A stretch of DNA of 64,000 nt. Source: Neocallimastix lanati (nom. inval.) (Eukaryota; Neocallimastigomycota; Neocallimastigomycetes; Neocallimastigales; Neocallimastigaceae). Every line of letters starts with the position of its first letter. The first letter of the stretch is position 1. The stretch spans positions 39,267-103,266 of the forward strand of contig JACVTC010000242.1 in assembly GCA_016946835.1 (NCBI GenBank), written 5' to 3'. Below are positions 7,525 through 50,908 of this stretch, one piece after another. A program made the translations under genes and the position numbers. Under the pieces are notes generated by a model, which did not search any database, had not been told where the DNA came from, and worked only from the letters and a program-made list of their open reading frames with translations.

Positions 7525-8542
7525 AAATGCTACTTGGAGACCAAAATTCTCAATTCCAGTGAATGTAAAATAAAATACTTATCAAGTCTAGGTTTGTGGC
7601 TATTCTAAACTAACTTTACTACACTAATAACACTATATCTTAAACCTCTATTATTTAATTAATTATTTTCATTTTTAATTTCTTTTATTTATTTATTTTA
7701 TTTATTAACTAATTTTCAACAACCACTTAACTGGGTAACGCAGGGTCCTTTTCGGAGTTCCCACTAGCAGTTAAGATTTTACAAACTATAATATAATTGT
7801 TTTATAAGAAAGTAAATATTCTAATAATAGTTACGAAACTAATAATAAAATTTAAATTTTCCTATTACTATACGATTTTCCAACTATCGTTCAATAGTTG
7901 AAAAATTAACTCTTTTTATACTTTTTCAAAATAAAGTTTTAAATCAAAATAAATTTTAATAAATTACATAAACATATTATTTTATATTATCAATTACATT
8001 ATATAATAAATTACATGAAATGTTATGAATTATTTTAATATAAATCCTATTTAAAACTATCTAATTTTTCTAAAATTTTCTATGAAGGAAATTTAGAGTT
8101 TAATTCATTAATTATATGATTAAATATATTCTATCCATATATTTAATTTAAATTTTGCCAAGTTGTGAAAACCAATTTACTAAACCACAACTTGCTATTT
8201 TTATTTTTAGAATTTCTATAATTTAAAAGACAAGTAAACAAAACGGCAAGTTTTTGTAAACAAACGGAAAAGGCAATATTCCTTTAATAATTTTAATTTA
8301 ACTAATTAATGACTAATTATTTTTTAATTTATGAAGTTTCGTGATTCAACTGAGTAATTGTTACGTAAATTCTCCAAATAATTTAGTCATAAATTTTTGA
8401 GAAAATTATTTAAATTAATAATTTGGAATACATTTAAATTTATATTAAAAATTTGGAAAACATTTTTATCCACAATAATTTGCATTACATTACATTTAAA
8501 TACGTATTCAAATTATTAAATATTTTACAGTGAACGATATCA
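7525..8542 (-). repeat. E-family repeat, probably a reverse LTR
   Basis: Non-coding. The right half (about 7860-8535) matches 45306-46016, ending acagtgaacg here and acagcgtaaca there. On the minus strand it would start TG-like, as an LTR does. The part 7525-7850 has no second copy that I recognise and no reading frame. Confidence 0.45.
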
Positions 8543-8547
8543 GTATC

Positions 8548-9345
8548 TGTAAGAAACGATAATTATTTGTTAAATAATTATAATTTCTTTATTTGATTAT
8601 TTATCTATTATATAATTTATACATTCATTCATTAAATTAGTAATTATTTATCAAGTTAACATGTATTTGTACATTTAATTATAGTTTTAATTTAATTAAA
8701 AAATTTTTTCTTTAAATTTATTTAGTATACATTTATTTTATTTAATTTATTTAATTAATTATAAATTTTATTAATTTTTATAGTAATAAATTAATTATTT
8801 AATTATTATTTTTAATTAAAATTTGAATTAACGGACTTTAAAGTTTTTTTATTTTCTTATTAAAATATAAATTAATTTTATCGGACTTTAAGGTTTTTTC
8901 TAATTTATTATAATAATAAATTGGTTTTTCCTTAAAGAACTTATCTAGTTTTTTCTTCTAATCTTTTTCTAGATAAGATAATTGTTAAGATTAGAAAACC
9001 TTTTAAATTATTATTTTATATAAAATTTATAAAATTTTATTATTTAATTTTTCGTATAAATAGCTATTGATTTCTCTAAATTTTTGAGAAATCAAGAGTT
9101 ATTATTATATAACAAATATTAATAAATATATAATAATAATTAATAAAATCTACAAACATTTTCAATAAGTGTTCTTTTATTTTGTGTTGTTTATTATATT
9201 TGTTTATAATAAACTCTTCTCTGTCAAGATAAGTTAAAATTTTCTTTATTTTTTCTAATTGTTTTCTTATTTTCTCAACTTGATGTTAGTATCAGGTTGT
9301 AGTTAATAATTTTGTTATAATAAATATTATAATGAAATTATTACA
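8548..9345 (+). repeat. Solo LTR, B type (798 bp) with TSD gtatc
   Basis: TGTAAGAA to ATTACA, flanked by gtatc at 8543-8547 and 9346-9350, a perfect 5-bp target duplication. Contains the B-type paired stem CTTATCTAG/CTAGATAAG (8940-8948 and 8969-8977), TATAAATA at 9055-9062, the start-site hairpin ending GAGAAATCAA, and the AGAGTTATTAT primer motif at 9095. It left only the LTR, presumably by LTR-LTR recombination. Confidence 0.82.
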
Positions 9346-9350
9346 GTATC

Positions 9351-10227
9351 TGTAATAATTCTATTAAGAACTAACTCAAAATAGAATTATTAACTACAAC
9401 TTAACGACTAATTCATTAAGTTGAGAAAATAAAATAAAATAAATTTTTTTACCTTTAATGTAGAGTTTATTATAAAATTAATTATAATAATAACACAAAA
9501 TGTAAGAGAAGAATTGTTTGTATAAATTGATCTTAAAAATATGTTTTTGAATAAAATATTTTTATTAATTTATTAAAGTTAAAAATATAAAATTGTTACT
9601 ATTATAACTATGTTTTTTTATAATAATAACTCTTGATTTCTCAAAGAGAACTCAAGAGCCTTATTTATATTTTTTTATGAAAATAAGGTTAAATAAGAAA
9701 GAGTTTTCTAATCTTAACAAATCTCTTATCTAGGAAAAGATTAGATAGAAAAACCTAGATAAGTTTTCGATCGATATTCTATCCATATCGATCATCGCAT
9801 TAATTAAGTAAAACCGATTACTTCTAAAAAGTAATTGGAAAAAATCTTAATTAACCGATTTTCCAATCTAATGATCGAAAATAAAAGAATAAAATAATAA
9901 AAAATATTTCGATCATATAATTTATCCTTATATTAAAAATATAAAATTAAATAGTTAATAAAATACAGAATACATTATAAAATACAGAATACATTATAAA
10001 ATACAGAATAAAATACAATACAAAATACATTAGTTACAGTAGAGAATTTAGCATATTGTAAATATATTATTTAAAATTAATTAAATAAATTTTGTTAAAT
10101 TAATGAATATTTAAAATTAAATTAAATAATTTAATAAATATTATATGTAATTAAATAAAGTTATAGTTATAATAACTTAACTAAGAAAATATAATTATTT
10201 GCTAACAAATAATTATAGATTCTTACA
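9351..10227 (-). repeat. Solo LTR, B type, reverse orientation (877 bp)
   Basis: On the minus strand it runs TGTAAGAATC to ATTACA. Flanks are gtatc (9346-9350) and atatc (10228-10232), four of five matching. It carries the B-type stem CTTATCTAGG/CCTAGATAAG (9725-9734, 9754-9763), the loop-complementary segment, and ataataactctt, the reverse complement of the primer motif. It shares one copy of gtatc with the LTR to its left, so the two inserted at the same spot. Confidence 0.72.
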
Positions 10228-10232
10228 ATATC

Positions 10233-13622: not shown

Positions 13623-13662
13623 TGATTTTGCTGTTGGCTTCATTCTTTCACATGTTAGTCCT

Positions 13663-15364
13663 TGTAACGAATACTAAAATGTTATGGCTCGAGGAATTAA
13701 AAAAAAATTATATAATATTAAAACATTAAATAAGTAGAAAATTTACTACACATAATAATTTTTATTTATTTATTTTATTTTTATTTTAATTTTTATTTTA
13801 TTTTTATTATTATTTTTATTTATTTATTTTATTTTTATTTATTTTATTTTTATTTATTTTATTTTTATTTATTTTATTTTTATTTATTTTATTTTTATTT
13901 ATTTTATTTTTATTTATTTTATTTTTATTTATTTTATTTATTATTTCTATTTTATTTATTATTTCTATTTTATTTATTATTTCTATTTTATTTATTATTT
14001 CTATTTTATTTATTATTTCTATTTTATTTATTATTTCTATTTTATTTATTATTTCTATTTTATTTATTATTTCTATTTATTCTTTTTTTTCTCCCCCCTA
14101 GAAAGGGATTCCAAGGTAGTCAATTTATATCTTTTTGAAGATATAAAAGTAGCAAGGCCTCTGGAAATAGTTGAAGAGATGGAAAAACAATAGATTTTTA
14201 AATCTTATTGATTATTTCCTTATTGTAATAAATAGAAATTTTATTATTTCCTAATATTCAAATTAACTAAAATAAATCTATAATATAAAAGATGCATTAT
14301 AGATAAGAATTAAATAAAAAAAGAAGCAGCATTACAATAAAATTGAATATTTTAACTTAATTTTGATACTAATTTAATATGTAATCTTATATATTAATTT
14401 GAATGACATAATAGAAAATAAAATACATTTATTAATATATGAAAAATCTTTTACAATTTTAAATACAGAAAAAATTTTTTTTATTTATTTCTTTCATTTC
14501 AATTATTTCTTAATTCGAAAGACAGAAATATTGAATAAGTTATTTAAGTTATTTATATACAGTAATTATTCCTTATTTAGAAGAATAATACTAAAAGTAA
14601 TTAGTACTATGTTGTTGATAGACTCTCATAAATTTAATTTACCTTTAAAAAGAATGAACATAAATTTAAATTAAATTTTATGTATAAAACTTAAATTTTT
14701 AGATCAAATAATATAGTAAAATTATTAATGTAAAGAATACATAAATTTATTAATATTTTAAAAATCACATTGACTATATTAAGAGGTTTTTAATAAGAAT
14801 CAATTTATTATTTCATTCTTTATCAAAAATTTGTTAAAGGAAATCTTGGTATAGCTGTTAGAGCTATAGCAATGAATCGAACTACTCGAGTTTGATTCAC
14901 ACTTACACCTACTTTTTGAATATTTCATTTTCATTGTTCTAGTTAATTCTTTCTGTATTTTCTTTAAGAATTTCATAGAAATTCTTAATAATCAAATTTT
15001 TATTTTTATTTTATTTTATCCTTTATTCCATTAGTTTCTAAATTAACCGCGAAAATCAGTTTTAAACGATTTTTCTAAGATTATAAAATTTTTGAAAATC
15101 ATACAAACTTTTTTTTCCGTAAAAAGTATAAATATGAGTAAAATTTTCACAAAAGAAATATTTTTAATTCGTGCTTTTATTAATTAATCAATTAATAATA
15201 AGTAATTTGGTATATTACAAAATTAGTTAATTAATAAATAAATAATTACTTTAATAAATTTTATTTTAATAAATTAATAAAACAAAATTTTTTAAAAAGA
15301 CATTTTAACTTATTATTAATTTTCCAGTGTTGCCTATTGCTATATAAGTGACCAGCTCGTTACA
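13663..15364 (+). repeat. tRNA-headed solo LTR (T2) carrying a nested insertion
   Basis: Starts TGTAACGAATACTAAAA and ends CGTTACA, same family as 42348-42957. Flanks gtcct (13658-13662) and gccct (15365-15369) are a target duplication with one change. Across it, B2 RNase H reads on (HVSP, then KDILLHPVVFYSR). The family sequence stops at 13680 and resumes at about 14826, so bases between are a separate insertion. The tRNA-like module is at about 14846-14905. Confidence 0.8.
13681..14825. repeat. Insertion inside T2, with long simple repeats
   Basis: Flanked by aaaat at 13676-13680 and 14826-14830. From about 13755 to 14085 it is tandem TTTATTTTATTTT and then about eight copies of an 18-bp unit (TTTATTATTTCTATTTTA). 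After 14090 is a single-copy stretch with a C-rich ctccccccta, then AT-rich DNA. A 91-codon frame at 14399-14674 is low complexity and I do not call it a gene. I recognise no transposon family. Confidence 0.5.
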
Positions 15365-26150: not shown

Positions 26151-27732
26151 TGTAAAGAATTATAATTATTTTTCAAAATAATTATTATTCTTTATTAAAA
26201 AAAATTAATATTTAAAGTTTATTATTTTATAAAATTCTATGAATAATTTTATTAATTATGTCACATAGTAATTATTAATTAATGTTATTGTTTTAAAATT
26301 TATTTACATTAAATTAAATTATCAATAATTAATATATTAAATTATAATTATGTATTATTGTTATTATTGTATTAAAATAATGATAAATTCTATTTAATTG
26401 TAAAGATATGATCAATATCTTTAGTACATTAATTAATTTATTTTGTACATTAAATTATTTAATGTAATTCACGTTTACAAAATAATGCTAATGCATTAAA
26501 TTATGTAAAATATATTAATTTATGAAATTAATTGATTTATGAAAATTAATAATAAATTTATATTTCATATAATATATAAATTTAAAAATATAAAATTAAT
26601 TTTTAAATAACCTAAAATTTAGTAATAAAATATTTTAATAATTTTAGTTTAGTTTAATTTTAGTTTAGTTTAATTTTAGTTTAGTTTAATTTTAGTTTAG
26701 TTTAATAATCATAAAAATTAAATAGTAATATATAATTAATAGTATTAATAATAAAAGAATAATAAATAAATAATAAATAAGAACTTATTCAATTTGAGTC
26801 AAAACAAATTGAATAAAAAGCTTATTGAATTAGTTTTAGTTTTTTATAACTTTATTTAATTTTAGATTAGTTTTTGTTTATTTTATATTGAATATATATT
26901 TAAATAAATAGAAATAGTATATTATAATATAATTAAGAAAAAATATAAATACATGTAAAATTATTCTATTAAAGAAAATGTAGTTGTTATTAACTATTTT
27001 GCAGTTAATAACTAATAAAAAGAATTTTTATAATAAAGTGATTAATAAAAGAATTTTTTTAAAAAATAAATTTCATTTGAGTATTGTTATTGATAGTGTT
27101 GTTTTTGTTTTTTTTTTTCGTAATTGTAATCTGCTCCATAAGGAACATTTTACATTAATTAAGAAAAATTAAATTATATTAAAATGATAATTTTATTTAA
27201 TTAAGAAATAATTAAATTATATTATTTCTTGGACTTTTAATTAAGAAAATTAAAAGAATTAATTATTTAATTATACTTGTGATTAAATATTAATAAAATT
27301 GATATAATTAGTTAATAGATTGATGTAATTAAACACCAATCGAAATCTATCTAGTTTTTTCTTCTAATCTTTTTCTAGATAGAAATAATTTTCCAAGATT
27401 AGAAATCAAATTAATATAAATAGGACTCTTGATTCTTCTAAAAATAATCAAAAGTTATTATTATAAGAAATTATAATAATTAACACAAATATTTTAAAAT
27501 TACTTTTAATAAAAAATTTTTTATAATAAAATAATTTCTAAAATACTCTTCACTTTTGACTTTTAGTGTTGTTTATTATAATCTTATAAAAAACTCTAAG
27601 TTTTAATATTTTCGTTTTCAAAATTTTATATTATATCTTTTAATTTTATCTCAATTAATAATATTTTTTATTATTAATTGTAGAAAGAATTAATTATTAA
27701 TATAATTGAATATTTTTAATTAATTGTTTACA
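26151..27732 (+). repeat. Solo B-type LTR with TSD tagag, itself interrupted
   Basis: TGTAAAGAAT at 26151, GTTTACA ending 27732, tagag at 26146-26150 and 27733-27737. Removing the nested LTR 26399-27154 and one ttaat leaves 821 bp. Has stem TCTATCTAG/CTAGATAGA (27346-27354, 27375-27383), loop TTCTAATCTT paired with 27395-27404, TATAAATA 27415, and AAAGTTATTAT at 27451 (36 nt on). Confidence 0.8.
26399..27154 (+). repeat. Solo TGTAAAG-type LTR (756 bp), TSD ttaat
   Basis: TGTAAAGATATG to CATTTTACA, with ttaat at 26394-26398 and 27155-27159. TATAAATA at 26944, GTAGTTGTTAT at 26980 (36 nt on), a variant of the family A primer motif. Contains short tandem tttagtttaatttta units near 26640-26700. 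Confidence 0.85.
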
Positions 27733-27737
27733 TAGAG

Positions 27738-28189
27738 TTATCCAAAGAGTTACCATGGTATGGTGTAATACACCATGACCATCAAGCCGAACTTTCGGGT
27801 TCGACTCACATCCTTTGCTAATCTATAATAATTTTTGTTTAATATAACTAGATTATTGTAGAAATTACTAGAGTTTCTTCGGTTAAATTTATTGAACCGA
27901 ATGAAACTAGAAAGTTCTATTTTATTAATTATTTAATCATTTTTTCCATAAGACTCAATTTCTTGAAAAAAATCACGATTTCTCGAACTTTCATCAAATC
28001 AAACTTTATTTTTTCGAAAAAATTTAAATAAGTGTGAATTTCGCAATAAAAATATTTTTTTTCGTGCTTTTTTTAATTAGTTAATAAGTAATTTGAAATA
28101 TTACATCTACTAATTAATAAATAATAATATTTTGTACCTTTTTTCTTTTATAACAATTAATAAAACAAATTTCAATAAAAAATATTACT
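27738..28189 (+). repeat. tRNA-headed LTR body
   Basis: tRNA-like start: box A-like TTATCCAAAGAGTTACCATGG (27738) and box B GGGTTCGACTCACATCC (about 27797). Then an LTR-like body with a TATA-like region and cgtgctttt (near 28060) as in 42348-42957. The module begins 6 bp after the end of the LTR 26151-27732. Confidence 0.55.
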
Positions 28190-29347: not shown

Positions 29348-30008
29348 TGTAAGAATATAGATTTATTTCTTATAAAATAATCTATCTTCTTATTTAATTA
29401 ATTTATATTTCATTTATATTTCAATATTTATTAACATGTAAAAAATATATTAATTTATCCAAATTAATATATTGAAAAATAATGTAAACAAATTTGTTGT
29501 AATGTATTAATTACTTAAAAATATTATTTATATTTTATTATTTCAATTAGTTGATAATTTATAAGATTTTAGCAATCGGTTAATTAATTTTTTCCCCAAT
29601 ATTATTATGATTGGGTTTTTATTAATTAATACGATGATTAATATATTAGAATATTAATCGAAGTTATTCAGGTTTTTCTACTAATCTTTTCCTGAATATC
29701 AATTTGTTAAGATTAGATACCTTTATTTGATTTGTTAACTTTATCTTATCTATTTTATTTATTTAATAATTACATCTATTTAATAATTTCATCTATTAAA
29801 ATAATTATAAATAAAAAAGTATAAAAGAACTCAAATTTCTTTGATTAAAGAAATTAGAGTTATTATTATATAATGCTATATAATAAATTAAAAGAAAATA
29901 AAGTCTTTTTGTTTATTTCAATATTTATATAAAGTTAAGTATAAATTTTTATATCTTAAAATATTAATAATCTAGTTATAGTTAGTATATTATAAATAGA
30001 TTATTACA
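29348..30008 (+). repeat. 5' LTR of Ty3-B
   Basis: TGTAAGAAT to ATTATTACA. Paired stem TATTCAGG/CCTGAATA (29665-29672, 29691-29698), loop CTAATCTT (29681-29688) complementary to AAGATTAG (29709-29716), TATAAAAG at 29820, AGAGTTATTAT at 29856-29866. Compared with the 3' LTR it lacks 19 bp containing AATAAA (see 35206-35224). Confidence 0.92.
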
Positions 30009-30019
30009 ATAATAACTCT
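30009..30019 (+). other. Primer-binding site of Ty3-B (self-priming type)
   Basis: ATAATAACTCT directly after the 5' LTR. Reverse complement of AGAGTTATTAT at 29856-29866, which lies 36 nt after the start of the TATA box. Same geometry as element A1 with a different sequence. Confidence 0.72.
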
Positions 30020-30045
30020 CATTAGTAATTTAAATAAAATTATTA

Positions 30046-30053
<8 letters not shown>

Positions 30054-30078
<25 letters not shown>

Positions 30079-30312
30079 TTTAGATACTTTAACTTTTGAG
30101 ATAAATTTTTTCAATTTAATTATAATTTAAAGTTTGAATCAAATAATATATTACAATATATAAAATAAATTAATTTAATTAAATAATTCAATCAATACAT
30201 ATATTACAATTAATTCTTTAGTATTTAAATAATAATAATAAAAAAAAAAAAAAAAAAAAAAAATACGTATATTTTAATAGTAGTAATAATAATAATAAAA
30301 ATAGTAATAGTA

Positions 30313-30343
<31 letters not shown>

Positions 30344-30384
30344 TAGTAATAATAATAATAGTTTTAGTAATAATAATAGTTTTA

Positions 30385-30433
<49 letters not shown>

Positions 30434-30470
30434 TAAAAATAAAATAAAATAAAAAAAAAAAAAAAAAAAT
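30054..30470 (+). repeat. Microsatellites in the Ty3-B leader
   Basis: Runs of about 24 A (30055-30078 and 30241-30263), AAT and AGT trinucleotide repeats (30283-30430) and a further A run (30450-30468). Non-coding leader between primer-binding site and gag. Confidence 0.85.
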
Positions 30471-30549
30471 TATATATATATTTTGATACTACTTAACTTT
30501 TTATTTTATTTTATATATTAAATTTTTTTTTTTAGGAAAATAAATCAAG

Positions 30550-33500
30550 ATGGAACTAAATGAACAAAGTATGAAAGAGTATGCCCCTAAAGAAAATGAA
30601 ACTTCAAAATTTATCTCTACCCTGACTGAGTTCATTCCAACATTCTTTTCATCAAAAGGTGTCTTATCAAAAGACGAAGATGAAACGTTGATGAACATCA
30701 ACGACGTCCTGGAACAAAGTGAGATGTTCTTTCAAGAACATCCAAACTCTTTTCCATCGGACATATATAAAAACACCTTTGTTATTAATAAACTTCAAGG
30801 TGTTGCAAAAAAATGGGGTCTCTCCCTAAAAACTGATAATATTTTAGAAAGTTTAAGTTATAAAAAATTTAAACATCTACTTATAAAAAATTTTGGAGAT
30901 ACGAAAGAGCAGAAATATGCTCTTATCGAACAATTATTGGAGTTAAAACAAAAACATTTAGGTAAAGCTACCTTTTATACCATTGAATTTAGAAGGTTGT
31001 CAAGGAGGATCGGATGGCAAAATAATGTCCTTATAGACTTAATAAGACGTGGACTAATTGATGAAGTTAAAGAAGAATTTGACAAGGTAAAAAATAAACC
31101 TCAGACTTTATTTGAAGCTACCAACATGATAATTGAAATTGATAAAAGATGTCTTTTGAATAATAAAATAACCAACAGTCATATTAACAAATTTAATAAA
31201 AAATCAACGTTCAGAATGAAAAGACATGAGCTGAACAAGAACGATAAAAAAGCATATAATCATTTCAAACATAACGAATTAAGATCTAAAAAGAAAAATT
31301 TATTATCAGCAAATTTCACACCCAGTTTTACAGGGAAAATGACTAATACTTTTACTATATCCTTCAACAATAAGCCTTTAAAAATAAAACTCATGATAGA
31401 CTCCGGATCTGCTAGAAGCTTTATATGTAAAGACTTTGTAACCGCTAACAAAATACCAGTTTCTGGCCTCCCTTCACCAATAAATATCCAGCTACCGAAT
31501 AATAAAAATATGAATATTAAACAAACAACTAAAAGCCTTCAACTTCAATTTATGGATCATAAAGAAAATTTTGAATTCTCTGTAGCAAATCTTCAACTCC
31601 ATGGAATCTCAGGAATTCTCGGAAGAGATTGGCTTAATATCCATAAGCCATATATTAACTTTGAAAATAATTATATTTACTTTTTGGAAAAATTCTGTTC
31701 TGATCATTGCCCTTCGTCCAAAGGAAACAAATTCATGTTTCACTCTAAAGAAATAACTGCATCTATGGTACCCGAAGCTATCCTTACTAACGATTCGATC
31801 TTTTCTGAAAGCAACGTTGAGGAAGATATCTCTGACGGTGATTTGTGTGCTGTTATGGTAGATAATATCAAACAACAAACAATGGAAGAAAAAGAAGAGA
31901 TAATCAATAAATATTACTTAGAATTTAAGATAGTTTTTGAGAAACAACAAGCTGACAAATTACCAAAGCACAGAAAGTATGACATGTCGATAGAACTCAT
32001 TCCCGGAAGTCAATTATATTATGGTCCAATATACTCACTAACTGCAAAGGAATTAAAAGCACTTAAAGAATACATAAAAGAAAATCTGAAAAAAGGCTTT
32101 ATTCGGAAATCAAAATCTCCCGCAGGCGCACCTGTTCTTTTTGTTATGAAACGTGACGGAACACTACGTCTTTGCGTAGATTATCGAAAATTGAATGCGA
32201 TAACTATTCGCAATAGTTATCCAATTCCAAGAATAAGTGATCTAATTGAATGTTTCAAGGGAGCAATTATATTTACGAGACTTGACTTAAGGTCTGCGTA
32301 TAATCTTATACGCATCAAAGAAGGACAAGAATATCTTACAGCATTCCGCACACCATTGGGTCATTACGAATATTTAGTTATGCCCTTTGGATTACGCAAT
32401 GCTCCTTCTGTGTTCCAGAGATTCGTTCAAGATATATTTTCTGAAGTTATTGGAAAGTTCGTACAGGTTTACTTAGACGATATAACTATCTACTCAAGTA
32501 ACAATACCAGTCATATTGATCATGTTAAGACAGTTTTGAATCTCCTAATTAGTAATGGACTCTATGCAAAGTTAGAAAAGTGCGATTTCCATGTGAAATC
32601 CACAACATTCCTAGGATTCACTGTCTCATCTACAGGATTGATAATGGATGCAAGTAAATTAAACTCAATATTAGAATGGCCAACCCCAACAAATATCAAA
32701 GATTTGCAAAGCTTTCTCGGTCTTTGTAATTATTATAGAAAATTTATAAAAAATTTTGCCAAGATAATGGAACCTCTAAGAAATTTATTAAAGAAAAATG
32801 TAACTTTTATTTGGGATGAATCTAAAGATGAAGCTTTCAACAAATTAAAGTCTGCTTTTAAAGATAATGAATTTTTAATTTTTCCTGACCCAGAGAAGGA
32901 ATTTATACTGGAAACAGATGCTAGTGATTACGCTGTCGGTTGCGTACTATCACAAATTTATGACAAAGATAAATTACTCCATCCAATTGCATTTCACTCA
33001 AGAGCACTAAATAAGAATGAAATAAATTATACCATATACGATAAGGAACTCCTAGCCATCATCGTTGCATTTGAAACGTGGAGACATCACTTGGAAGGTG
33101 CCAAATATCCCGTTCGAATTATAACTGACCATAAAAACCTACTGTATTTTAGGAAACCCCAAAATCTTAATCAACGCCAGGTTAGGTGGAGTCTATACTT
33201 GTCAAAATTTGATTTTAGAATATCTCATAGACCAGGAGAAAATAGTGTAAAACCAGATTCATTATCCAGACGCCCCGATTATAGAAATAAAATTCCAAAA
33301 AACGATTTCAATCCAGCTGTTCTTGATGATAATATTTTCTGTTGCGCTTCTGTTGAAAATATAAGCTTACTTATCGACGCCCAGAAGAAGGATAAATTTT
33401 GTAAAAATACTATGGAAAAGATTTATGATAAATCTTCAAATAAAGTTAATTCATCATTATTCACTCTTGTTGATGGAGTTTTACACTTCCAAAAAAGGAT

Positions 33501-34590
33501 TATTGTCCCATCCTCTCTTAAACATAAGGTGCTCAAATCTTTCCACGATACTCCTACAAACGGACACCAAGGTATTGATAAAACTCTCGAAAAACTTCGG
33601 AGATATTATTGGTGGCCGAACATGAAAAATGACGTTCAAAATTACATTAAGTCATGTATCACTTGTGGAAAAAGCAAAGTACGTAAGCATAAACCTTACG
33701 GAAAAATACAACCTCTTCCGGTGCCCAGTAAACCTTGGGAAATCATTGGAGTAGATTTCATAGTATCACTCCCTAATTCTCAAAACTGCTCCTGCATTTT
33801 GGTTGTTTCAGATCATTTGACAAAAATGATACACCTTACACCTTGTTCTGACGTTCCATCCGCTGATTTAACTGCCAGACTCCTCTTAAACAATGTTTTC
33901 CGATACCACGGATTCCCGAAGATTATAGTTTCTGACCATGGTTCCCAATTTTCCTCCGAATTTTGGACTTCACTTTGTAGTGCCCTTAGTATAAAACCAA
34001 GCCTAGCTACTGCATTCCACCAACAATCAAATGGCCAAGTAGAAAGGGCTAACGCTGTAATAGAGCAATATTTAAGATGCTATTGTTCTTCTGCCCAGAC
34101 AGATTGGTGTTTTTATTTACCATTATGTGAACTCGCATATAACAATTCATTGCATAAATCAATAGGATGTTCTCCCTTTTATGCCAATTACGGATTCAAC
34201 CCTAGTTGTAATATTGATTCTCCTCCAGTTCTTCTTACTGACAATGCTTCTGTCCTCACAAGAGATTGGGCTTCTCATTTCAATGGCCTTAAGAGACATC
34301 TCATTAAGGCTAAGGAAGACTACAAGAAATTCGGAGATAATAGAAAATCTTTCGGTCCAAAATTGAAGGTAAACGATAAAGTATGGTTAAAAAGACATTA
34401 CTTTTCTAATGAACCTTCACGCAAATTATCTTCTCAATATTTAGGACCCTTTAAAATAATTGAAGAAAGAGAAAGATTAAATTATCGGTTAGAGCTACCA
34501 GAAAATCTGCATCTGCATCCGATTTTCCATATTTCACAATTGGAACCATACTCTGAAAGGAATCCTGAATTAAAGGAAAACAACATGTAA
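30550..34590 (+). CDS. gag-pol: Gag-Pol polyprotein of Ty3-B, intact, 1346 codons
   Basis: ATG at 30550 to TAA at 34590 with no break. Gag region about residues 30-200, then a basic stretch without a CCHC knuckle (KFNKKSTFRMKRHELNKNDKK), unlike family A. Protease MIDSGSARSF near residue 282; RT from about 500 with YLDD near residue 645; RNase H ETDASDY and TDHKNL; HHCC finger (HDTPTNGHQG...CITCGKSK) from about residue 1000; DDE core GVDFIV, SDHGSQ, NGQVERAN; GPY/F module LGPFKI near residue 1300; end HPIFHISQLEPY. No chromodomain. A single gag-pol frame means Gag excess must come from processing or turnover, as known for Tf1. Possibly functional. Confidence 0.95.
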   Translation: MELNEQSMKEYAPKENETSKFISTLTEFIPTFFSSKGVLSKDEDETLMNINDVLEQSEMFFQEHPNSFPSDIYKNTFVINKLQGVAKKWGLSLKTDNILESLSYKKFKHLLIKNFGDTKEQKYALIEQLLELKQKHLGKATFYTIEFRRLSRRIGWQNNVLIDLIRRGLIDEVKEEFDKVKNKPQTLFEATNMIIEIDKRCLLNNKITNSHINKFNKKSTFRMKRHELNKNDKKAYNHFKHNELRSKKKNLLSANFTPSFTGKMTNTFTISFNNKPLKIKLMIDSGSARSFICKDFVTANKIPVSGLPSPINIQLPNNKNMNIKQTTKSLQLQFMDHKENFEFSVANLQLHGISGILGRDWLNIHKPYINFENNYIYFLEKFCSDHCPSSKGNKFMFHSKEITASMVPEAILTNDSIFSESNVEEDISDGDLCAVMVDNIKQQTMEEKEEIINKYYLEFKIVFEKQQADKLPKHRKYDMSIELIPGSQLYYGPIYSLTAKELKALKEYIKENLKKGFIRKSKSPAGAPVLFVMKRDGTLRLCVDYRKLNAITIRNSYPIPRISDLIECFKGAIIFTRLDLRSAYNLIRIKEGQEYLTAFRTPLGHYEYLVMPFGLRNAPSVFQRFVQDIFSEVIGKFVQVYLDDITIYSSNNTSHIDHVKTVLNLLISNGLYAKLEKCDFHVKSTTFLGFTVSSTGLIMDASKLNSILEWPTPTNIKDLQSFLGLCNYYRKFIKNFAKIMEPLRNLLKKNVTFIWDESKDEAFNKLKSAFKDNEFLIFPDPEKEFILETDASDYAVGCVLSQIYDKDKLLHPIAFHSRALNKNEINYTIYDKELLAIIVAFETWRHHLEGAKYPVRIITDHKNLLYFRKPQNLNQRQVRWSLYLSKFDFRISHRPGENSVKPDSLSRRPDYRNKIPKNDFNPAVLDDNIFCCASVENISLLIDAQKKDKFCKNTMEKIYDKSSNKVNSSLFTLVDGVLHFQKRIIVPSSLKHKVLKSFHDTPTNGHQGIDKTLEKLRRYYWWPNMKNDVQNYIKSCITCGKSKVRKHKPYGKIQPLPVPSKPWEIIGVDFIVSLPNSQNCSCILVVSDHLTKMIHLTPCSDVPSADLTARLLLNNVFRYHGFPKIIVSDHGSQFSSEFWTSLCSALSIKPSLATAFHQQSNGQVERANAVIEQYLRCYCSSAQTDWCFYLPLCELAYNNSLHKSIGCSPFYANYGFNPSCNIDSPPVLLTDNASVLTRDWASHFNGLKRHLIKAKEDYKKFGDNRKSFGPKLKVNDKVWLKRHYFSNEPSRKLSSQYLGPFKIIEERERLNYRLELPENLHLHPIFHISQLEPYSERNPELKENNM

Positions 34591-34625
34591 GTATTTTCCC
34601 ATTTCAAATTAAGAAAAAAGGGCAA

Positions 34626-35305
34626 TGTAAGAATATAGATTTATTTCTTATAAAATAATCTATCTTCTTATTTAATTAATTTATATTTCATTTATATTTC
34701 AATATTTATTAACATGTAAAAAATATATTAATTTATCCAAATTAATATATTGAAAAATAATGTAAACAAATTTGTTGTAATGTATTAATTACTTAAAAAT
34801 ATTATTTATATTTTATTATTTCAATTAGTTGATAATTTATAAGATTTTAGCAATCGGTTAATTAATTTTTTCCCCAATATTATTATGATTGGGTTTTTAT
34901 TAATTAATACGATGATTAATATATATGAATATTAATCGAAGTTATTCAGGTTTTTCTACTAATCTTTTCCTGAATATCAATTTGTTAAGATTAGATACCT
35001 TTATTTGATTTGTTAACTTTATCTTATCTATTTTATTTATTTAATAATTACATCTATTTAATAATTTCATCTATTAAAATAATTATAAATAAAAAAGTAT
35101 AAAAGAACTCAAATTTCTTTGATTAAAGAAATTAGAGTTATTATTATATAATGCTATATAATAAATTAAAAGAAAATAAAGTCTTTTTGTTTATTTCAAT
35201 ATTTAGTGTTTATAATAAACTCTATATAAAGTTAAGTATAAATTTTTATATCTTAAAATATTAATAATCTAGTTATAGTTAGTATATTATAAATAGATTA
35301 TTACA
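34626..35305 (+). repeat. 3' LTR of Ty3-B
   Basis: 680 bp, TGTAAGAAT to ATTATTACA. 35206-35224 is the segment missing from the 5' LTR and includes AATAAA at 35214-35219, the likely polyadenylation signal. It forms an inverted pair with the LTR that starts at 35788. Confidence 0.92.
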
Positions 35306-35787
35306 AACGAATCATGAAAATTAGCATAATGTCTTAGTTGTTAGTAACTAAGACTTTAGTTCGAACTTCTCAAGTTCGAAACCTTTATTTTTCCAAAAAA
35401 TATATTTTATTATTATTTTTATTTTATTTTTATTTTTATTAAGAAAAATAGCTTGATTGGTTATTTTTAATTCATTAAAATTTCTTTATTTTATTTATCA
35501 AAATTTTTATATAAATAGGTGTAGATTTTCCTCTAAAAATATTTTATACTTTGAGTTTTTATTAATAAAATAAAATTATTATTAAACACTAACTTATTAA
35601 GTTAATTAATGTGTTTTTGATAATAAATTTATAATTAATAAAATAAATATAAATAAAAATATTTTACTTATTTTATTTTAAAGGTTTTAAGTGTTTATTT
35701 TTAAATTTATTGTCAAGAACCATTTCGTGACAATTTATAATAATAATTATATCACTTTACATTATTATTTAATATCTCGTATCAAAT
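35306..35787 (+). repeat. Remainder of tRNA-headed LTR F
   Basis: With 29340-29347 (TGTAACGA) it rebuilds a start TGTAACGAATCATG, like TGTAACGAATCCT at 42348. Box A-like TAGCATAATGTC at 35322, box B-like AGTTCGAAACC at 35373, TATAAATAGG near 35511. The 3' end is not certain; it stops by 35787 where an inverted B-type LTR begins. Confidence 0.6.
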
Positions 35788-36705: not shown

Positions 36706-36719
36706 GATTAAGAGTCTCA
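36706..36719 (+). other. Primer-binding site, matches tRNA-Lys(CUU) anticodon arm
   Basis: GATTAAGAGTCTCA directly abuts the LTR and is the reverse complement of TGAGACTCTTAATC in the anticodon stem-loop of tRNA-Lys(CTT) at 56136-56149 (15 nt if the last LTR base is counted). Drosophila copia is primed by a tRNA half cut in the anticodon arm (known); the same is inferred here. Confidence 0.75.
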
Positions 36720-36828
36720 ATTTGAGCTTTAAAAATATTTTACAGTATATTCAAGATAACAAAATTAGTATATTTAATTATTTTTTAAGAATTACAAGTT
36801 TTAATTATTTTTGAAATTTCAATTTAAA

Positions 36829-39452: not shown

Positions 39453-40771
39453 AATTTTAATCAAGATAACCTTAATCATAATAATTTAAATAATAATTTA
39501 AATTTTATTAATAATAATTTAAATGGTCAATTAAATTTTAATATAAAAGAAAATAATATAAACGAAAAATTAAATTCACAAAACATAAATGCTCCATTAA
39601 ATAATTTAAATCCGGACATTTATAATAATTATTTTCAAAATGAAAATTATAATAATTTTTCTAATGAAAATAATGACCATTTAAATAATAAAAATAATTT
39701 TAATAACTTAAATAATAATAATAATTTAATAAATAAAAATGATTTAAATGTTAATTTGGATAAATTAAATAAATTATCAAATAATTCAAATGTAAACAAA
39801 TCTTCAAATTCAAATTTAATTGAGGAAAATATCGATACTCATTTAAAGGATATTTCATATAAACAAAAGGGGAAGGAAATCGCCAACACTAGTGAAGAAA
39901 ATTTACAAAATGTAATTTCAATTGAAAACAAGGAATTGAAACATATTCAGAATTTAAACAATTCGAATAATGTAAACAAAAAATCAAGTTTCACAAATGT
40001 AAACAAAAAACCAAATTTAACTCAACATAATAATTTTATTAATAACTCTTTTAAAAGTAATGTTTATTCAGATAAGCAATTAAGTGAACGCGTAAGTAAT
40101 ACTGTAAGTAATAATGATATTATAAAACAAATTAATGAACGCGTAAGTAATAACACAAATAATATCGATAATGTAAATTCTAATGAAATAAACGTATTAA
40201 ATAATAATGAAAACAAAATTAATGTAAATGATAATATAAATACAAATTTAAATAATATAAATGACCCAACCAATTTAATTACGAAAGATATAAGTAATGA
40301 TATTAATAATTATAATATGGTTAATAAAAGATATAATTTAAGAATGTAAACAAAAGGTTAAATAATAAATTAAAAAATAATAATTCAAATTCAAAAGATA
40401 AGAAAATTAAAACTAAGGAATCGAATAAATATAAAAATAATTCTAAATTCACCAATGAAGATAAACGTATAAATAATTCTAAATTCATTAATGAAGATAA
40501 ACACTCAAACAATTCCAATTTAAAAAATAAAATTAAGAATATTTCGTTGGAAAGAAAAAAGGTTAAGGAATCCGTAATTTCAAATGAAAATAAACAAATA
40601 AATTCTAATTTTAAAAATAAAAATTCAATTGAAGATAAACAAGTTGATTCTACTAATTTAAATAATTCCAAAGACAAATTTACAAAAATGAATTCAGATA
40701 ATTTCAATGACAATTCAAATTCAAATTCAAATTCAAATTCAAATTTAAATGATTTAAATGACAGTAAATTA

Positions 40772-40804
<33 letters not shown>

Positions 40805-42342
40805 TCCTTAAGAGTGAATAGGAAAAGAAAATTTAAAAGAAATAATACTGAAGTTCGCAAGAAATATAAAACTTTTAACATAGAAGATATATTTGACAAT
40901 GATACATCAATTAGTGAATCACCTCTTAGCGAATCCAGTATTATTGAATACAAAAGAAAACTTAGAAAAAGAAAATATAATCGTATCAATAAATCTAATA
41001 TAGGTAACTATGAAAGTAAAAAATATATTTCTTTTGATATAGATGAAATCATGGAAAATAATGCATTCATGACTGTCGATATGAAGAAAGAATCTGATGA
41101 ACCAACTTCCTATCAGGATATTTTCTTTCGAAAAGATAAAGATGAGTGGATTACAGCAATTAATAATGAATTAAATAATATGAAGAAAATGAATGTTTAT
41201 ACACCTATTAAGAAACTTCCTAAAGGTGTTAACGTTATTTCTACTCGTTGGGTATTTAAAAACAAACACGATGCTAATGGTAGAGTATATAAGAAAAAGG
41301 CAAGATTAGTGGCACGTGGTTTTACTCAACAATATGGAATAGATTATAAAGAAACATTCGCACCTACTTTAAAACAAGATACAATTAGAATCATTACTTC
41401 GATAGCTGCAAAGAATAATTATAATATACATCAATTAGATATTAAGGCAGCTTATTTAAATGCAAAATTAAATGAAGACATATATATGGAACTACCAGAG
41501 GGTGACGACCATCGAGGAATGAAATATTGTAAATTAAACAAAGCTTTATATGGTCTTAAACAAGCCGGACATATGTGGAATGACACCCTAAATGAAGCTC
41601 TAATTAACATGAAATTTAATAGACTATTAAGTGAACCTTGTCTCTATGTTAAAAGGAATGCACATAATAAAATTATTTGCCTTCTAGGTGTATATGTAGA
41701 TGATATTCTCATCACAGGTGAAAATAAAGAAATTTTAAAGGTTAAAAGATTATTAAAAGATAAATTTGATATAACTGATACAGGTTATGTTGATTTTATA
41801 GTAGGTATAAAATTTGTGAAATGTAAAGATGTATATTTAATTCATCAAAAGAGATATTTGAATGATATATTTAAAAAATTCAATATAAACAAATTAAAAC
41901 CATGCTCAAATATGATTCCAATTAATAATAAAAAATTAAAAGAGAAACCATTCAATCCAACAAAATATAGACAAGCCGTTGGTAATCTATTATATCTTGC
42001 CATATGTACAAGGCCAGATATCTTATTTTCGATAAGTAAAGCATCACGTAAAAACCAAAATCCAAATTATGAGGATTGGTTTAATGTCTTTAAAATATTT
42101 AGATATTTAAAATACACGCCAAATTATGGAATTAAATTTAGTAAAAATGATAATTACAATTTTGAGGTCTACGTAGATGCGGATTTAGGTGGTGATCCCG
42201 ATACTAGAAAATCTACCACTGGATATGTAATGACAATAAACTCAGGACCCGTTAGCTGGTATTTTAAATTACAAAATACTGTAGCAGTTTCTACAGCAGA
42301 AAGTGAATATTACGGAATACATGAGTGCACACATCAATGTTT
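39453..42342 (+). pseudogene. pol: Copia Asn-rich linker, RT and start of RNase H
   Basis: From 39453 to about 40850 the reading frame is almost only Asn, Lys, Ser, Leu and Ile, including (AAT)n-coded poly-Asn near 40773-40803; frame breaks lie near 39452 and 40349. RT begins about 41090: WITAINNEL, RWVFKNKHD, QLDIKAAYLNA, LNKALYGLKQAGHMW and catalytic YVDDIL near 41694. RNase H has VDADLGGD and the conserved STAESEYYG. It is interrupted at 42347 and resumes at 42963. Confidence 0.85.
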
Positions 42343-42347
42343 ATGGT

Positions 42348-42957
42348 TGTAACGAATCCTAAAATTTCAGAATAAGAAATCTTGGCATAGTAGCTAGAGA
42401 TATGACCATGAATCGAACTACTCGGGTTCGATTTACACTCAAAGCAAATTTTAATAATTTTTATTTTCATTTTCTAGATGTTTCTTTCTGTAATTTCTTT
42501 AAGAATTTTAGAGAAATTCTTAATAGTTAAAATTATATTTTATTCTATTTTATTCCTTCTTTTTATTAGTTTCTATTTTTGTGGCTAAAATCGGTTTTAA
42601 ACGAATTTTCAACAATTCTATAATTTTTCAAAATCATGAAAACTGTTTTTCCGAAAAAAGTATAAATAGGTATGAATTTTCACTTGAAAATATTTCTCTT
42701 CGTGCTTTTATCGTATTTTAACGTAGTTTATTATTATTAGTAATAAAACATTTTTCTAATAAAACAATTTTTAATAAATAATTAAATAAATAAAATATTA
42801 AATAAAACCAATATTACTAATATTTCAGCACCGACCTTCCTAATCAACAAAGGAATCAAGTGCTCCAATATTAATATTTTGTGTTTACTAATTCTTGTGT
42901 TTAGTTTACTTATTCTAAGTGTCCTTTTAGTATTGGAACACCCAGGTTTCTGTTACA
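42348..42957 (+). repeat. tRNA-headed solo LTR (T1, 610 bp), TSD atggt
   Basis: TGTAACGAATCCT to CTGTTACA with atggt at 42343-42347 and 42958-42962. Uninterrupted reference copy of the family. tRNA-like module at 42381-42440; TATAAATAGG at 42661-42670 preceded by ttttccgaaaaaag; cgtgctttta near 42701. Sister copies: 13663-15364 and 49121-50908. Confidence 0.9.
42381..42440 (+). promoter_or_regulatory. tRNA-like module (box A and box B) in T1
   Basis: TGGCATAGTAGC at 42383-42394 fits the box A consensus TRGCNNARYNGG except its last base; GGTTCGATTTA at 42425-42435 fits box B GGTTCGANTCC except the last two. Spacing of 30 nt is that of a tRNA gene. The arms do not pair well, so it is not a working tRNA. 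Pol III activity is inferred only. Confidence 0.6.
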
Positions 42958-42962
42958 ATGGT

Positions 42963-43243
42963 ATAAAAATATATTTAAAGAACTAAATATCAATATAAAT
43001 AATATAACAATTAATTCGGATAATAAAGCTGCAATTTATAATTGCGAAAATGAAACTATAAATTTAAAGTCAAAGCACATTGATTTAAAATATCACAAAA
43101 TTAGAGAACTAGTTCGAGAAGGTAAAATAAAATTAAATTATATTAAATTAGAACATAATATAGCTGATGGTTTTACCAAATATCTTAATTCTACTCTAAT
43201 GAGTAAATTTAGAAACAACATTCTTTCTAGCTTTAGTAATTAA
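42963..43243 (+). pseudogene. pol: Copia RNase H, C-terminal part
   Basis: Resumes after the T1 insertion: KNIFKELNININ, SDNKAAI, SKHIDLKYHKIRELV, HNIADGFTKYLN, all RNase H signatures of copia elements. Stop TAA at 43241-43243. The polypurine tract tttagggggaa follows at 43279-43289. Confidence 0.87.
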
Positions 43244-43289
43244 AAATAATAGATTTTTTTATTTAAAGAATATTAAACTTTAGGGGGAA

Positions 43290-43624
43290 TGTTAGAAATA
43301 AAGTTTAATATATGATATTATTCTTGTTATTAAACAAAATAACATATATAAATTTTATGTATAAATATTATAAATTATTAAGATATTAACTATTATATAA
43401 ATTGTAATATGGCGCATGGATGACGTACATAAAACATTTATGAAATAACACATAAAATATAATTGTGACATAATTAAAATTTATGTAGTAAAAAATATAT
43501 ATAAAAAATATTAAAAATAATTATTAAAAAGTAGTTAACTATAATTATAAATAAATAAATAAAAATATTAATAAAATAATAAATAAAATTTGAAATTACG
43601 AAATTTGAAGTGTTAATTCTAATA
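43290..43624 (+). repeat. 3' LTR of the copia element
   Basis: 335 bp, directly after the polypurine tract, about 99% like 36370-36705. Followed by target duplication atata and the interrupted B-type LTR. Confidence 0.9.
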
Positions 43625-43629
43625 ATATA

Positions 43630-46016: not shown

Positions 46017-46024
46017 AATATCAC

Positions 46025-46598: not shown

Positions 46599-46604
46599 AT
46601 CGTT

Positions 46605-46980: not shown

Positions 46981-47044
46981 TGTATTATTGCATAATTTAA
47001 TAAATATTTTTTTATTATAAATGCATCAAGGTGTGATAAATCTC

Positions 47045-47415: not shown

Positions 47416-47477
47416 ATGAAACAAATTCTGATATTAATACTTATTCCTAAATTAATTGCTTTTGTAACGATATCAAG

Positions 47478-48388
47478 TGTAAAGAATAATAATTAATTTT
47501 TATTATAATAAATAATAATTATTAATCTTTATTAAATAAAAATTATTTAATAAAATTTTTTAACTTTCTAATATAAATTTATTATTAATAATTTATAATT
47601 AATATTATAAAAATTATTATTCTTTATCATTATAATAATATAATAATATTAAAATAATTAAACATAATATTTTTTATATTTGTTAAAACTCATTTGATAA
47701 TTAAATTTTAAGTTTTAATCTAAATAATTGTTACATTAAAATAATTTTAAAAAAATATAATATAAATTATAGAATTGTAATTTAAAAATAATTATAAAAT
47801 TATATTAAAAATTATAATGTAACAAATAAAATGAAAAAAGAATAATTAATGTTTAAAAGATTAATTAAAATAAAACAATGTCATGTATAATTGACATTGT
47901 TTAAATAAAACAAATGTTAATTGAAGTTTTCCCATTGGAAAATATCGGTTTTTATTCAATTAACATATGATCAATTTTGTTAATAATTGATCATTAAACT
48001 TTTTAGGTTTTTCTCCTAAATTTTTTCCTAAAAAGTTATTCATTAAGATTTGAAACTTTATTATAAATAATTCTTGATTTTCTTTATTTTGAAAATCAAG
48101 AGTTATTATTATAAGAATATAATTATAATAATAAACAAAATAAAATTTTAATTATTTTAAAATAACAAAAATTTTAATAAAAATTATTTTTAATAAAAAA
48201 TATTTTAATAAAAAGTTTATTTGAACTATTTACCAAACTAAATCTCTTATAATAAACTTCTCCCTATATTTTTAGTTTTGTTAAGTATTTTCCTTTATTT
48301 TTTTTTTAATTCCTCTATTAATATTAATTATTAGTATTAATTGTAGAAAAGGATTAAATTTAATTAAGTTTAAATTTAATTCTTTACA
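47478..48388 (+). repeat. B-type LTR (911 bp)
   Basis: TGTAAAGAAT to TCTTTACA. Stem AACTTTTTAGG/CCTAAAAAGTT (47997-48007, 48027-48037), loop 48017-48024 pairing with AAGATTTG (48045-48052) including two G-U pairs, TATAAATA 48062, AGAGTTATTAT 48099 (37 nt on). It splits a TGTAACGA LTR: tgtaacga before (47464), taacgaatcg after. No clean target duplication. Confidence 0.7.
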
Positions 48389-48907
48389 TAACGAATCGTT
48401 ATGGTTGCTAAAGTGGTTCAGTGGTACCAGCTTGAATAGTAATAGTGGTTGTCACTGTTTCGAATTTTACTTTTTATCTTTTAAAATAATATTTTTAATA
48501 ATAAAATAATTAAAAGAATAAATAATTAATATTTAGATAAATTTATATTTTAATTAATTAAATGATTGCTAAATAATAACTTAAATAAATCTTTATAATA
48601 TGTAAATGGATAAATTAATTAATAGTTAGATTAATTATATTTTAATAATAATTAAATATATTTTTTATTTTAAATTATATAACCAATTATGTAATATTTA
48701 GAATAGATTTTTGAATATAAAAATCATGTATTTTATTTTATTTTTACTCTTTGAATCGATATTAACATTCAATCAATAATAAATAAATTATAAACCATAA
48801 ATAAATAAGTTTTATAATCAAATATTGTGTCAATTAATATTTAATTTTCTGTTATTTATTATTGATTCCTATAACAACCTAGTGGTTATAGCACCCAGTT
48901 CATTACA
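48389..48907 (+). repeat. tRNA-headed LTR G3
   Basis: TAACGAATCG start, box A-like TTGCTAAAGTGG at 48405-48416, second TTCAGTGGTA, box B-like TTTCGAATTTTAC (about 48459), end CATTACA. Body similar to 10233-10650 (attctataacaacctagtgg-like end). Confidence 0.6.
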
Positions 48908-49120
48908 GCTTTATTGAGTAAATTAATATTAATATTAGCTTTACGTCAACTTTTATTGGTATATGTATGTTCGTTTACATTTATGATTTAGTCATATTTT
49001 CCATTCAATCAGCAACATATTATTATATCAAAAAAATTCTCAATTCTATCAAATAAAACGGATTAAAAATTAATATTGAATTTTTTTATTTTCATTAGAG
49101 TAAAAGTAGTTTTTCCTAAG
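48908..49120 (-). pseudogene. Unrecognised coding relic, one side of an LTR insertion
   Basis: Less AT-extreme DNA that continues at 50914 after the LTR. On the minus strand, joining across the insertion with one ctaag removed gives an open stretch of about 56 codons at the junction (includes DNTDNRINRFIQEYIN), then several stops. Function unknown. Confidence 0.3.
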
Positions 49121-50908
49121 TGTAACGAATCCTAAAGTTTCATGTAACAGATTCATGGTAACTTCAAGCCTATCCAATGATAGTTCTCTGGTTACGTAAC
49201 GTATCTCTAAACAGTTAGCAATTTCGGCTAATCAAATAAAATCTTTTATTAATTTCGTACATTAAATTTTATTTTCTATAATTAATTATATAGTTAAATA
49301 CTTAGTTAAATATATTTCATTTAGTGATTAGTAAACTAAGTTAAATTAAATTATTTACCAATCATAAAATTATTGACATGTATAAATAATAATTGAACTT
49401 GTAACTGTAACGCACTAGCGTTACTATTAATGTAAATTTTTAAAAATAAATATTAATATTAATAAATAAAGATATAATTATTAAATAAATAAATTACCCT
49501 GTGTAAGCCCAGTAGCTAATAACGAATAGAGTTATAAAGTGCTGCACTATATTCTAGTGTAATAGTAATAAATAATTATAAATAAAATTAATTCTAGTGT
49601 TTATTTTTAACAACTCTAATAGAGAGGTGTTAAGTTATCTTAGTCTTTAAATTTAGTTATTATTCGTTATTTTAGTTAATAATAAACTTACTTTTTACAT
49701 TTGATAAAGGATTAAATTATAAATCAATAAAACATTATATTATTGAGAATGAATAAAATTATTAAACAAAATAAAATAAATCATATTACCATCTAAACAA
49801 TAACTATAAATTAATTAATAATAATAATAGTAAATATTTTAAATAAATAATATAAATAAATTAAATTGTTAAAATAATTAAAATTATTAAATATTAAATA
49901 TTTTATTTTAAAGAACAATGTAATTTTTATAATAAAAATTAAAAATGTTATATTATAAAAATCTTAATGTAAACTTAAGTTTAAAAATAATGATAATTGT
50001 TTAAAAATAATAATTAGATAGTTTTATTTTAAAATTTTTAATTTAAAAGAAAAATATATAAACTTGTAAAAAAAATCTCAAATTAAAAGAAACAGAATTA
50101 ATAAAAAAAAATAATTAATTTCTCAAAAATTATTAATTTAAAATTTTATTATATTTTAACTTAAAAGAAATTTGCTTTTCTTTATAGTTTAAGATATTTT
50201 GTGTTTTAGTAAAATTTTAATTTATTGATTATAAAACATTTAATTTTGTTATACTTATTATCACTTTTAGAAATTAAATTCTAAATTAAGATAATAAGCA
50301 AACTATAATTCATTGCAGAAAAAGAAATCTTGGAATAGTGGCTAGAGTTGTGATCATGAATCGAACTACTCGGGTTCGATTCACACACAAAGCAAATTTC
50401 AGTAATTTTTATTTTCATTTTCTAGATATTTTTTTCTGTAATTTTTTTAAGAATTTTATAGAAATTCTTAATAGTTAAAATTAAATTTTATTTTATTTTA
50501 TTCCTTCTTTTTATTAGTTTCTATTTTTTGGCTAAAATCGGTTTTAAACGAATTATCCACAATTCTATAATTTTTCAAAATCATGAAAACTTTTTTTTCA
50601 AAAAAAGTATAAATAAGTATGAATTTTCACTTGAAAATATTTCTTTTCGTGTTTTTATCGTAGTTTATTATTATTAGTAATAAAACATCTTTCTAATAAA
50701 ACAATTTTTAATAAATAATTTAATAAATAAATAAATATATAAAATAATAAATACAAAACCAATATTACTAATATTTCAGCACTGACTTTCCTAATTAACC
50801 AAGGAATTAAGTGCTCCAATATTAATATCTTGTATTTACTAATTCTTGTGTTTGGTTTGCCTATTCTAAGTGTCATTTTAGTATTGGAACACTCAGGTTT
50901 CCGTTACA
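49121..50908 (+). repeat. tRNA-headed solo LTR (T3), TSD ctaag, with nested insertion
   Basis: TGTAACGAATCCTAAAGTTTCA (49121-49142) then, after an insertion, gaaaaagaaatcttgg... to CCGTTACA at 50908, matching 42348-42957. ctaag at 49116-49120 and 50909-50913. Box A TGGAATAGTGGC at 50331, box B GGTTCGATTCA near 50374, TATAAATAAG near 50609. Confidence 0.88.
49143..50312 (+). repeat. Insertion inside T3: H-family LTR plus unknown DNA
   Basis: 49143-49699 (TGTAACAGATTC to TTTTTACA) is an LTR whose inverted relative is 25073-25633. 49700-50312 is AT-rich DNA of unknown origin. Possible target duplications: tttca before, ttgca after 50312 (or tttga after 49699), each with one mismatch. Confidence 0.6.

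Follow-up and report, generated by a model that had tools for sequence, protein, structure and literature searches.

Long terminal repeats (LTRs) of several retrotransposon families in the fungus Neocallimastix lanati carry modules that, by their sequence, look like internal RNA polymerase III (Pol III) promoters and structurally not like transfer RNA (tRNA) genes, and other LTR elements have inserted just upstream of many of them. We describe these modules in a window of 64,000 nucleotides (the whole stretch of DNA analysed, positions 39267-103266 of contig JACVTC010000242.1) and across the AT-rich genome, which comprises 199 Mb in 762 contigs. GC content in the window ranges from 13 to 35% (2-kb steps). 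The AT content and a 49%-identical protein from an Orpinomyces gene set (P0053) both point to an anaerobic gut fungus. Nested Ty3/gypsy and Copia elements precede a cluster of 20 tRNA genes predicted by ARAGORN at 54477..63263, where the initial annotation had counted 21. In yeast, the retrotransposon Ty3 integrates upstream of tRNA genes at the Pol III start.

Promoter modules and the LTRs inserted beside them

Modules were identified by a fixed rule, which requires an A box and a B box with at most three mismatches in total and a spacing of 38-49. Seven modules are found in positions 1-54400 of the window, whereas 20 first-order Markov sequences hold 0.2 on average. They start at 27756, 35330, 42383, 48414, 50331 and 51513 on the forward strand and at 52673 on the reverse strand. 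Their boxes are 42-44 bp apart, the spacing in most tRNA genes of the window being 43-45 bp, and within the LTR the modules are located close to the 5′-end; several of these LTRs start with TGTAACGAAT. The clearest module families are A and its relative A′ (represented at 14847), while C, D and E are our labels for the others. The type copy of A, a family that serves as target, is an intact solo LTR at 42348..42957 (+), which is bounded by the 5-bp duplication ATGGT, sits within a Copia pol frame and has a module (42383..42434, +) that has not been hit. The A module folds into a hairpin around box B (z −2.8). A TATA-like GTATAAATA is found at 42660, ~310 bp into this LTR and downstream of the module, and the LTR of family A may hold both RNA polymerase II-type and Pol III-type signals.

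The initial annotation had listed eight modules as hit by another LTR element and three as spared. All three spared modules, at 42383, 51513 (51513..51566, +) and 52673 (52620..52673, −, family C), pass the rule, and no recognised tip lies upstream of the latter two. Among the eight, those in LTRs of families C (27756..27807, +, box A re-placed from 27738), E (35330..35382, +, previously 35322) and D (48414..48466, +, previously 48405) and that of family A at 50331 pass as well; the module at 14847 fails the rule yet is a clear relative of that at 42383. The modules at 10242, 25650 and 46611 are weak and do not pass. An additional weak module at ~44839, absent from the earlier list, has its upstream sequence in common with 27738, so that these two are perhaps not independent. 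With the boxes re-placed, the tips in the window end ~14-26 bp upstream of box A, which replaces the earlier range of 6-20 bp.

Both ends of the insert and a target duplication are recognisable at five of the eight sites. The first is shared by two LTRs of one family, an LTR with the duplication GTATC at 8548..9345 and a second one at 9351..10227, which judging by their ends lie in opposite orientation. GTATC occurs there twice and is followed by ATATC; this is repeated insertion at one pad. The tip of the 9351..10227 LTR is found again at the modules of L018 and L057 and, with lower similarity, at the tRNA genes of L063 and L072. An A′ LTR is divided into a 5′ remnant (13663..13679, +) and a module-bearing remainder (14826..15364, +, 3′-end set by eye) by an insert at 13680..14825, which has the duplication AAAA or AAAAT. 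Upstream of the family C module at 27756 lies an insert at 26151..27732 (duplication TAGAG), whose tip shares 94% identity over 139 bp with the insert of L053 and 96% over 53 bp with the tip at a tRNA-Asn gene of L078. The family E module is preceded by a full-length Ty3/gypsy element, H1 (29348..35305, +, duplication AACGA), which ends 25 bp upstream of box A. At the fifth site, a family A LTR is split into 49121..49142 (+) and 50313..50908 (+, module at 50331) by LTR T (49143..50312), which starts with TGTAACAG and has the duplication TTTCA/TTGCA with one mismatch. For the tips ending at 25633, 46598 and 48388, the near end alone was matched to a repeat, at 77% only in the case of 46598. The tip ending at 48388 adjoins the family D module and shares 85% identity over 123 bp with the tip at a tRNA-Arg gene of L080.

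LTR T sits at a family A module, and its own tip is abutted by H1 in the flanks of C158, C179 and C141. It is either both inserter and target, or part of stacks.

Insertion points across the genome and at tRNA genes

A 30-base pattern inside the module gave 78 matches in the genome and none in the reversed control, and the best 30 were cut out as loci. This sample was chosen by the module alone and was used as the proof of break clustering. Fifteen of the 30 loci are broken at LTR positions 11-17, 11 keep the 5′-end, and four are broken at positions 28, ~40, 54 and 54; farther downstream there are a few dispersed breaks (126, 155, 266, 364, 450 and 587). A′ copies aligning to 525 of 548 positions were not scored as broken, L034 is a duplicate of L032 (leaving 14 of the 15 zone breaks), and a second break of L051 at position 14 was left out of the count. 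With 14 of 24 breaks inside a 7-bp zone of 610 bp (binomial 1.2e-21), an even spread of insertion points, which the initial annotation had named as the outcome that would count against it, is not what is observed. A first LTR search, in which 40 of 546 candidates were scored, was biased to near-complete copies, which is why no proof was drawn from the clustering of its starts at 11-19.

A pattern on the box A side, allowing up to three mismatches, lists 69 modules (46 A′ and 23 A). By pattern, the LTR start is in place in 19 of the 46 A′ and 9 of the 23 A modules; the upstream stretches of 24 further modules are interrupted in 22 and intact but diverged in two (L156 and L171). Overall, 37 of the 69 are interrupted at LTR positions ~11-20, 31 have an intact 5′-end and one has another break (L055); L044 (C81), scored as intact but diverged, could alternatively be taken for a hit. 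In all, 47 interrupted copies were available, some of them beyond the 69; they represent 42 distinct junctions and 19 LTR-tip types, clustered with hand-set lists of 15 intact and five otherwise broken copies. Eight of the 47 form three duplicate groups (L150/L152/L153/L154, L161/L162 and L025/L027), and L022/L030 are duplicates by eye. The earlier assertion that most events are independent, rather than copies of one or two composites, agrees with these counts. The orientation of most inserts is not readable from the tips.

The same tips recur at real tRNA genes. From 9278 first-look tRNA candidates in the genome, 63 matches were scored and 30 loci cut out; together with the window these hold 71 distinct tRNA genes (20 in the window and, outside it, 29 Arg, 11 Thr, 10 Asn and one undefined). 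A tip known from modules lies upstream of 22 of the 71 genes, corresponding to 22 of the 51 outside the window, and downstream of two (80% identity over 51-56 bp). In 19 of the 22 upstream matches, the tip ends 7-20 bp before the tRNA start. We used this count instead of a broader one (43 of 65 tRNA sites with a partner in the other class), in which many partners are merely neighbouring tRNA genes. For fifteen module sites the best partner is a tRNA gene, at 80-99% identity over 112-144 bp. Twelve of these matches end 14-24 bp from box A and three at 7-11 bp, one of the latter having a 7-bp deletion in the module.

Pairs of a tRNA locus and a module locus illustrate how closely the positions agree. 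The tips of L070 and L011 (96% over 132 bp) both end 18 bp from box A, those of L075 and L014 (98% over 133 bp) and of L081 and L041 (99% over 133 bp) all at 17 bp, and those of L086 and L008 (94% over 133 bp) both at 14 bp. The distances are 21 and 20 bp for L080-Thr and L017 (98% over 128 bp), 23 and 22 bp for L083 and L052 (99% over 127 bp), and 24 and 23 bp for L066 and L006 (92% over 126 bp), the tRNA locus being given first. These shared tips at similar distances lend the proposal that modules, like tRNA genes, draw integration to a site upstream of box A a support that the initial annotation did not yet have.

The tRNA cluster at 54477-63263 is without shared LTR tips, as the initial annotation had remarked, though sampled tRNA genes elsewhere often carry them, and the remark does not extend to those. 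At ~330-334 kb of G000:C555, matches to tRNA-Arg(TCT) are spaced ~545 bp apart, which suggests a tandem tRNA array.

The inserting element H1 and the carriers of the modules

H1 is the one inserter whose coding region was read, the other inserting families being known from LTR tips alone. Its frame of 1348 amino acids (30544..34590, +) comprises gag, protease, reverse transcriptase, RNase H, integrase and an SH3-like end (Pfam), which is the domain order of Ty3/gypsy elements, and its best solved match is that of Ty3 (7q5b, E 6.8e-144). A Pfam search of the frame did not find the chromodomain PF00385, which fits the type of Ty3 and of the dictyostelid element DGLT-A. Among 120 listed of 3303 relatives, PF00385 is absent from the entries of all 19 at 66-76% identity, of which some are fragments, and is given for many, though not all, of those at ≤51%. 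H1 may itself have arisen within the lineage of the chromodomain element found in the window, because the two share 58% identity over 456 residues. Of 1346 first-look candidates for the H1 LTR, 40 were scored and are 98-100% identical, some being the two ends of one element; on this measure H1 appears to be a young family. A second H1 LTR, in reverse orientation, is found at 35786-36373 beside a Copia element (36369-43624).

The flanks of 27 H1 copies were read. Seven adjoin a tRNA gene or B-box module, and at each of the remaining 20, a repeat that also occurs in other retrieved DNA starts at most seven bases from one end; these repeats are mostly LTR tips, many of which are also seen at tRNA genes. 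None of the 27 has plain unique DNA on both sides. Four copies lie at tRNA genes (C301 at Gln and C271 at Cys, by ARAGORN; C555 at Ser, by covariance model; C390, by identity to C555), where the H1 end is 22-25 bp from box A (partly by eye) and ~14-18 bp from the tRNA start. Outside the window site, three copies lie at B-box modules (C749, at 24 bp from box A, C136 and C66), and inspection by eye places H1 at C13 and C739 within TGTAACGAA-type LTR starts. An exact 5-bp duplication accompanies 20 of the 27 copies, and both insertion orientations occur. Like Ty3, H1 is found upstream of Pol III genes and modules at a distance that is short and fixed, C66 excepted.

At least one of the module-bearing families, A′, is to judge from its coding frames a chromodomain Ty3/gypsy element. 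In copy L042, frames for integrase and chromodomain (PF00385, E 8.2e-18) lie directly before the 3′ LTR, which marks this one copy as a chromovirus and distinguishes A′ from short non-autonomous elements; similar frames are seen by eye in L037 and L043. In family A (L003 and L020), just gag/protease-like frames precede the 3′ LTR by eye, and that of L020 has no Pfam match. Family A is possibly a relative of A′ that is not autonomous.

Modules as candidate landing pads

We consider it very probable that the modules in these LTRs act as landing pads, with a guild of LTR retrotransposons integrating at Pol III start regions, tRNA genes and modules alike. The observations behind this are the offsets, the shared tips, the target duplications, the stacks, the two orientations of H1 and its lack of a chromodomain. 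The ordinary sites of the guild would be tRNA genes, and its insertions would mostly fall ~14-27 bp upstream of box A. Other LTR elements, including the chromodomain family A′, carry close to the 5′-end of their LTRs an A box and a B box that are spaced as in tRNA genes, and because these modules look like internal Pol III promoters, integration would treat them as tRNA genes, with the same offset and often with repeated hits at one site that build up LTR stacks. By analogy with yeast Ty3, TFIIIC would bind the boxes and TFIIIB upstream of them, and the integrase would be drawn there; such recruitment of Pol III factors to the modules is what we infer.

Several observations weigh against the landing-pad reading. 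None of the 20 tRNA genes in the window has a shared LTR tip upstream, and the tRNA sample consists mostly of Arg, Thr and Asn genes, since the best-scoring matches alone were cut out. Three of the 22 upstream tips lie ~100 bp away, before a paired tRNA-Asn gene, and at 31 of 52 module sites the tip is not seen in any other class of site. The offset has exceptions, the insert of L053 lying inside box A and H1 at C66 just 4 bp upstream of box A of a second family E copy. Seven of the 27 H1 copies have no exact duplication; one of them (C752) is a 5′ LTR with internal sequence on its other side, and another (C170) is off by one base. For the 20 H1 copies with no visible tRNA gene or module, the stacked tips would have to serve as the mark of a Pol III site. 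Tested modules gave no tRNA covariance match at E values up to 10, because of which the part retained in them appears to be the promoter and not the RNA. Conservation of the module is also not special: A and A′ agree in 45 of 55 module columns and in 308 of 523 columns of the remaining LTR, and a 60-bp block after the module is 87% alike, so that the best-conserved neighbouring parts of the LTR match the module in this respect. On this comparison of columns, we rejected the idea that the module is specially conserved.

The initial annotation had gone further and called the modules a decoy target. That they evolved as decoy or mobile harbour, selected for diverting elements that target Pol III from tRNA genes or for offering them a safe site, seems improbable to us. 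Such selection would suit the high proportion of A/A′ modules that are hit (37 of 69) and the module-bearing copy that sits inside another element, but each hit splits the carrier LTR 11-20 bp from its end, the module is without special conservation, and tRNA genes in the sample outside the window are still hit (22 of 51). A decoy as a trait that pays is unsupported. Shared tips at Arg, Asn and Thr tRNA genes with different upstream DNA, ending at similar distances from box A, likewise make it very improbable that the inserters prefer a DNA sequence or an LTR end with Pol III uninvolved. LTR families with other upstream DNA (35330, C136 and C749) repeat this pattern, against which stand an AAAATTT stretch common to A and A′ at the break zone and the stacking of insertions beside other LTR tips too.

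Random insertion followed by survival in harmless places alone would require positions 11-17 of dead LTRs to have an advantage over the other ~600 for which no cause is evident. The insertions seen are indeed old and recent, with none new, and harmless sites near tRNA genes would be kept; H1, however, is young (LTRs 98-100% alike), and 0 of its 27 copies lie in plain unique DNA on both sides. We regard this explanation as even less probable, and least probable of all the repeated copying of a small number of composite elements. The duplicate groups described above, L022/L030 included, are what copying would produce, but 42 distinct junctions and 19 tip types remain.

Returning to the landing pads, a wider scenario may be considered, in which chromodomain elements spread mobile Pol III pads through transposon-rich DNA and the guild lives on these pads and on tRNA genes. 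The habitat of the guild would then be set by another group of transposons, and part of the insertion load would be shifted off tRNA genes. We regard this scenario as possible and rather doubtful.

Targeting of Pol III genes is known from other retrotransposons, which we compare here as far as the available passages of the cited sources go. DGLT-A of dictyostelids is reported to insert 13-33 bp upstream of the mature tRNA and to have no chromodomain (PMC5006619; PMC5911963). Ty3 and DGLT-A are like H1 in being Ty3/gypsy elements found at a short fixed distance upstream of tRNA genes, and the chromodomain contrast between H1 and A′ resembles that between DGLT-A and Skipper (PMC5006619). Unlike in these systems, 19 tip types occur here in one genome, sites are reused, and promoter modules in the LTRs of other elements are also targets. 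Tj1 of Schizosaccharomyces japonicus is likewise an LTR element directly upstream of Pol III genes, with 13 of 17 new insertions at tRNA genes and three at 5S genes; its insertions at Pol III genes are in one orientation, whereas H1 occurs in both (PMC4600332). The passages on Tj1 mention no LTR-borne target; the same source treats Brf1 and TBP in Ty3 targeting (PMC4600332). The non-LTR element TRE5-A of Dictyostelium targets Pol III complexes and revealed putative Pol III binding sites outside tRNA genes, which lie on extrachromosomal ribosomal DNA and not, as here, in LTRs (PMC5391098).

LTRs holding sequence derived from Pol III genes are known from Helenus, Ajax and Cassandra, together termed TRIMp3, of which the tRNA-like Helenus occurs in fungi and has 5-bp duplications there (PMC10886601). 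These are short non-autonomous elements, in contrast to A′ with its integrase-chromodomain frame, and as regards a tRNA-derived origin like that of Helenus, the A/A′ sequence has boxes at tRNA spacing and no covariance match in the modules tested. In the available text of that source, the words "nested" and "Ty3" do not occur (PMC10886601). Searches of an open-licence library listed no paper in which elements of anaerobic fungi target tRNA genes or in which modules carried by LTRs are hit, which is not proof of absence in print.

Retrotransposons that target Pol III sites and LTRs that contain Pol III promoter sequence, both known kinds, occur here in a combination that is new with respect to the literature searched. 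An LTR of a coding family in which a Pol III-type module is combined with a TATA-like sequence is at odds with the expectation, in the passages available, that LTRs with Pol III promoters share little with autonomous partners (PMC10886601). For cellular Pol III genes, target choice of the Ty3 kind is already known; here the mobile promoter modules of other elements are hit at a similar offset. The dozens of distinct hits on module families A and A′ amount to a natural experiment, in which the requirement for integration would be the boxes and their spacing rather than a tRNA. They also offer a case in which it can be tested how the niche of one group of transposons is shaped by another.

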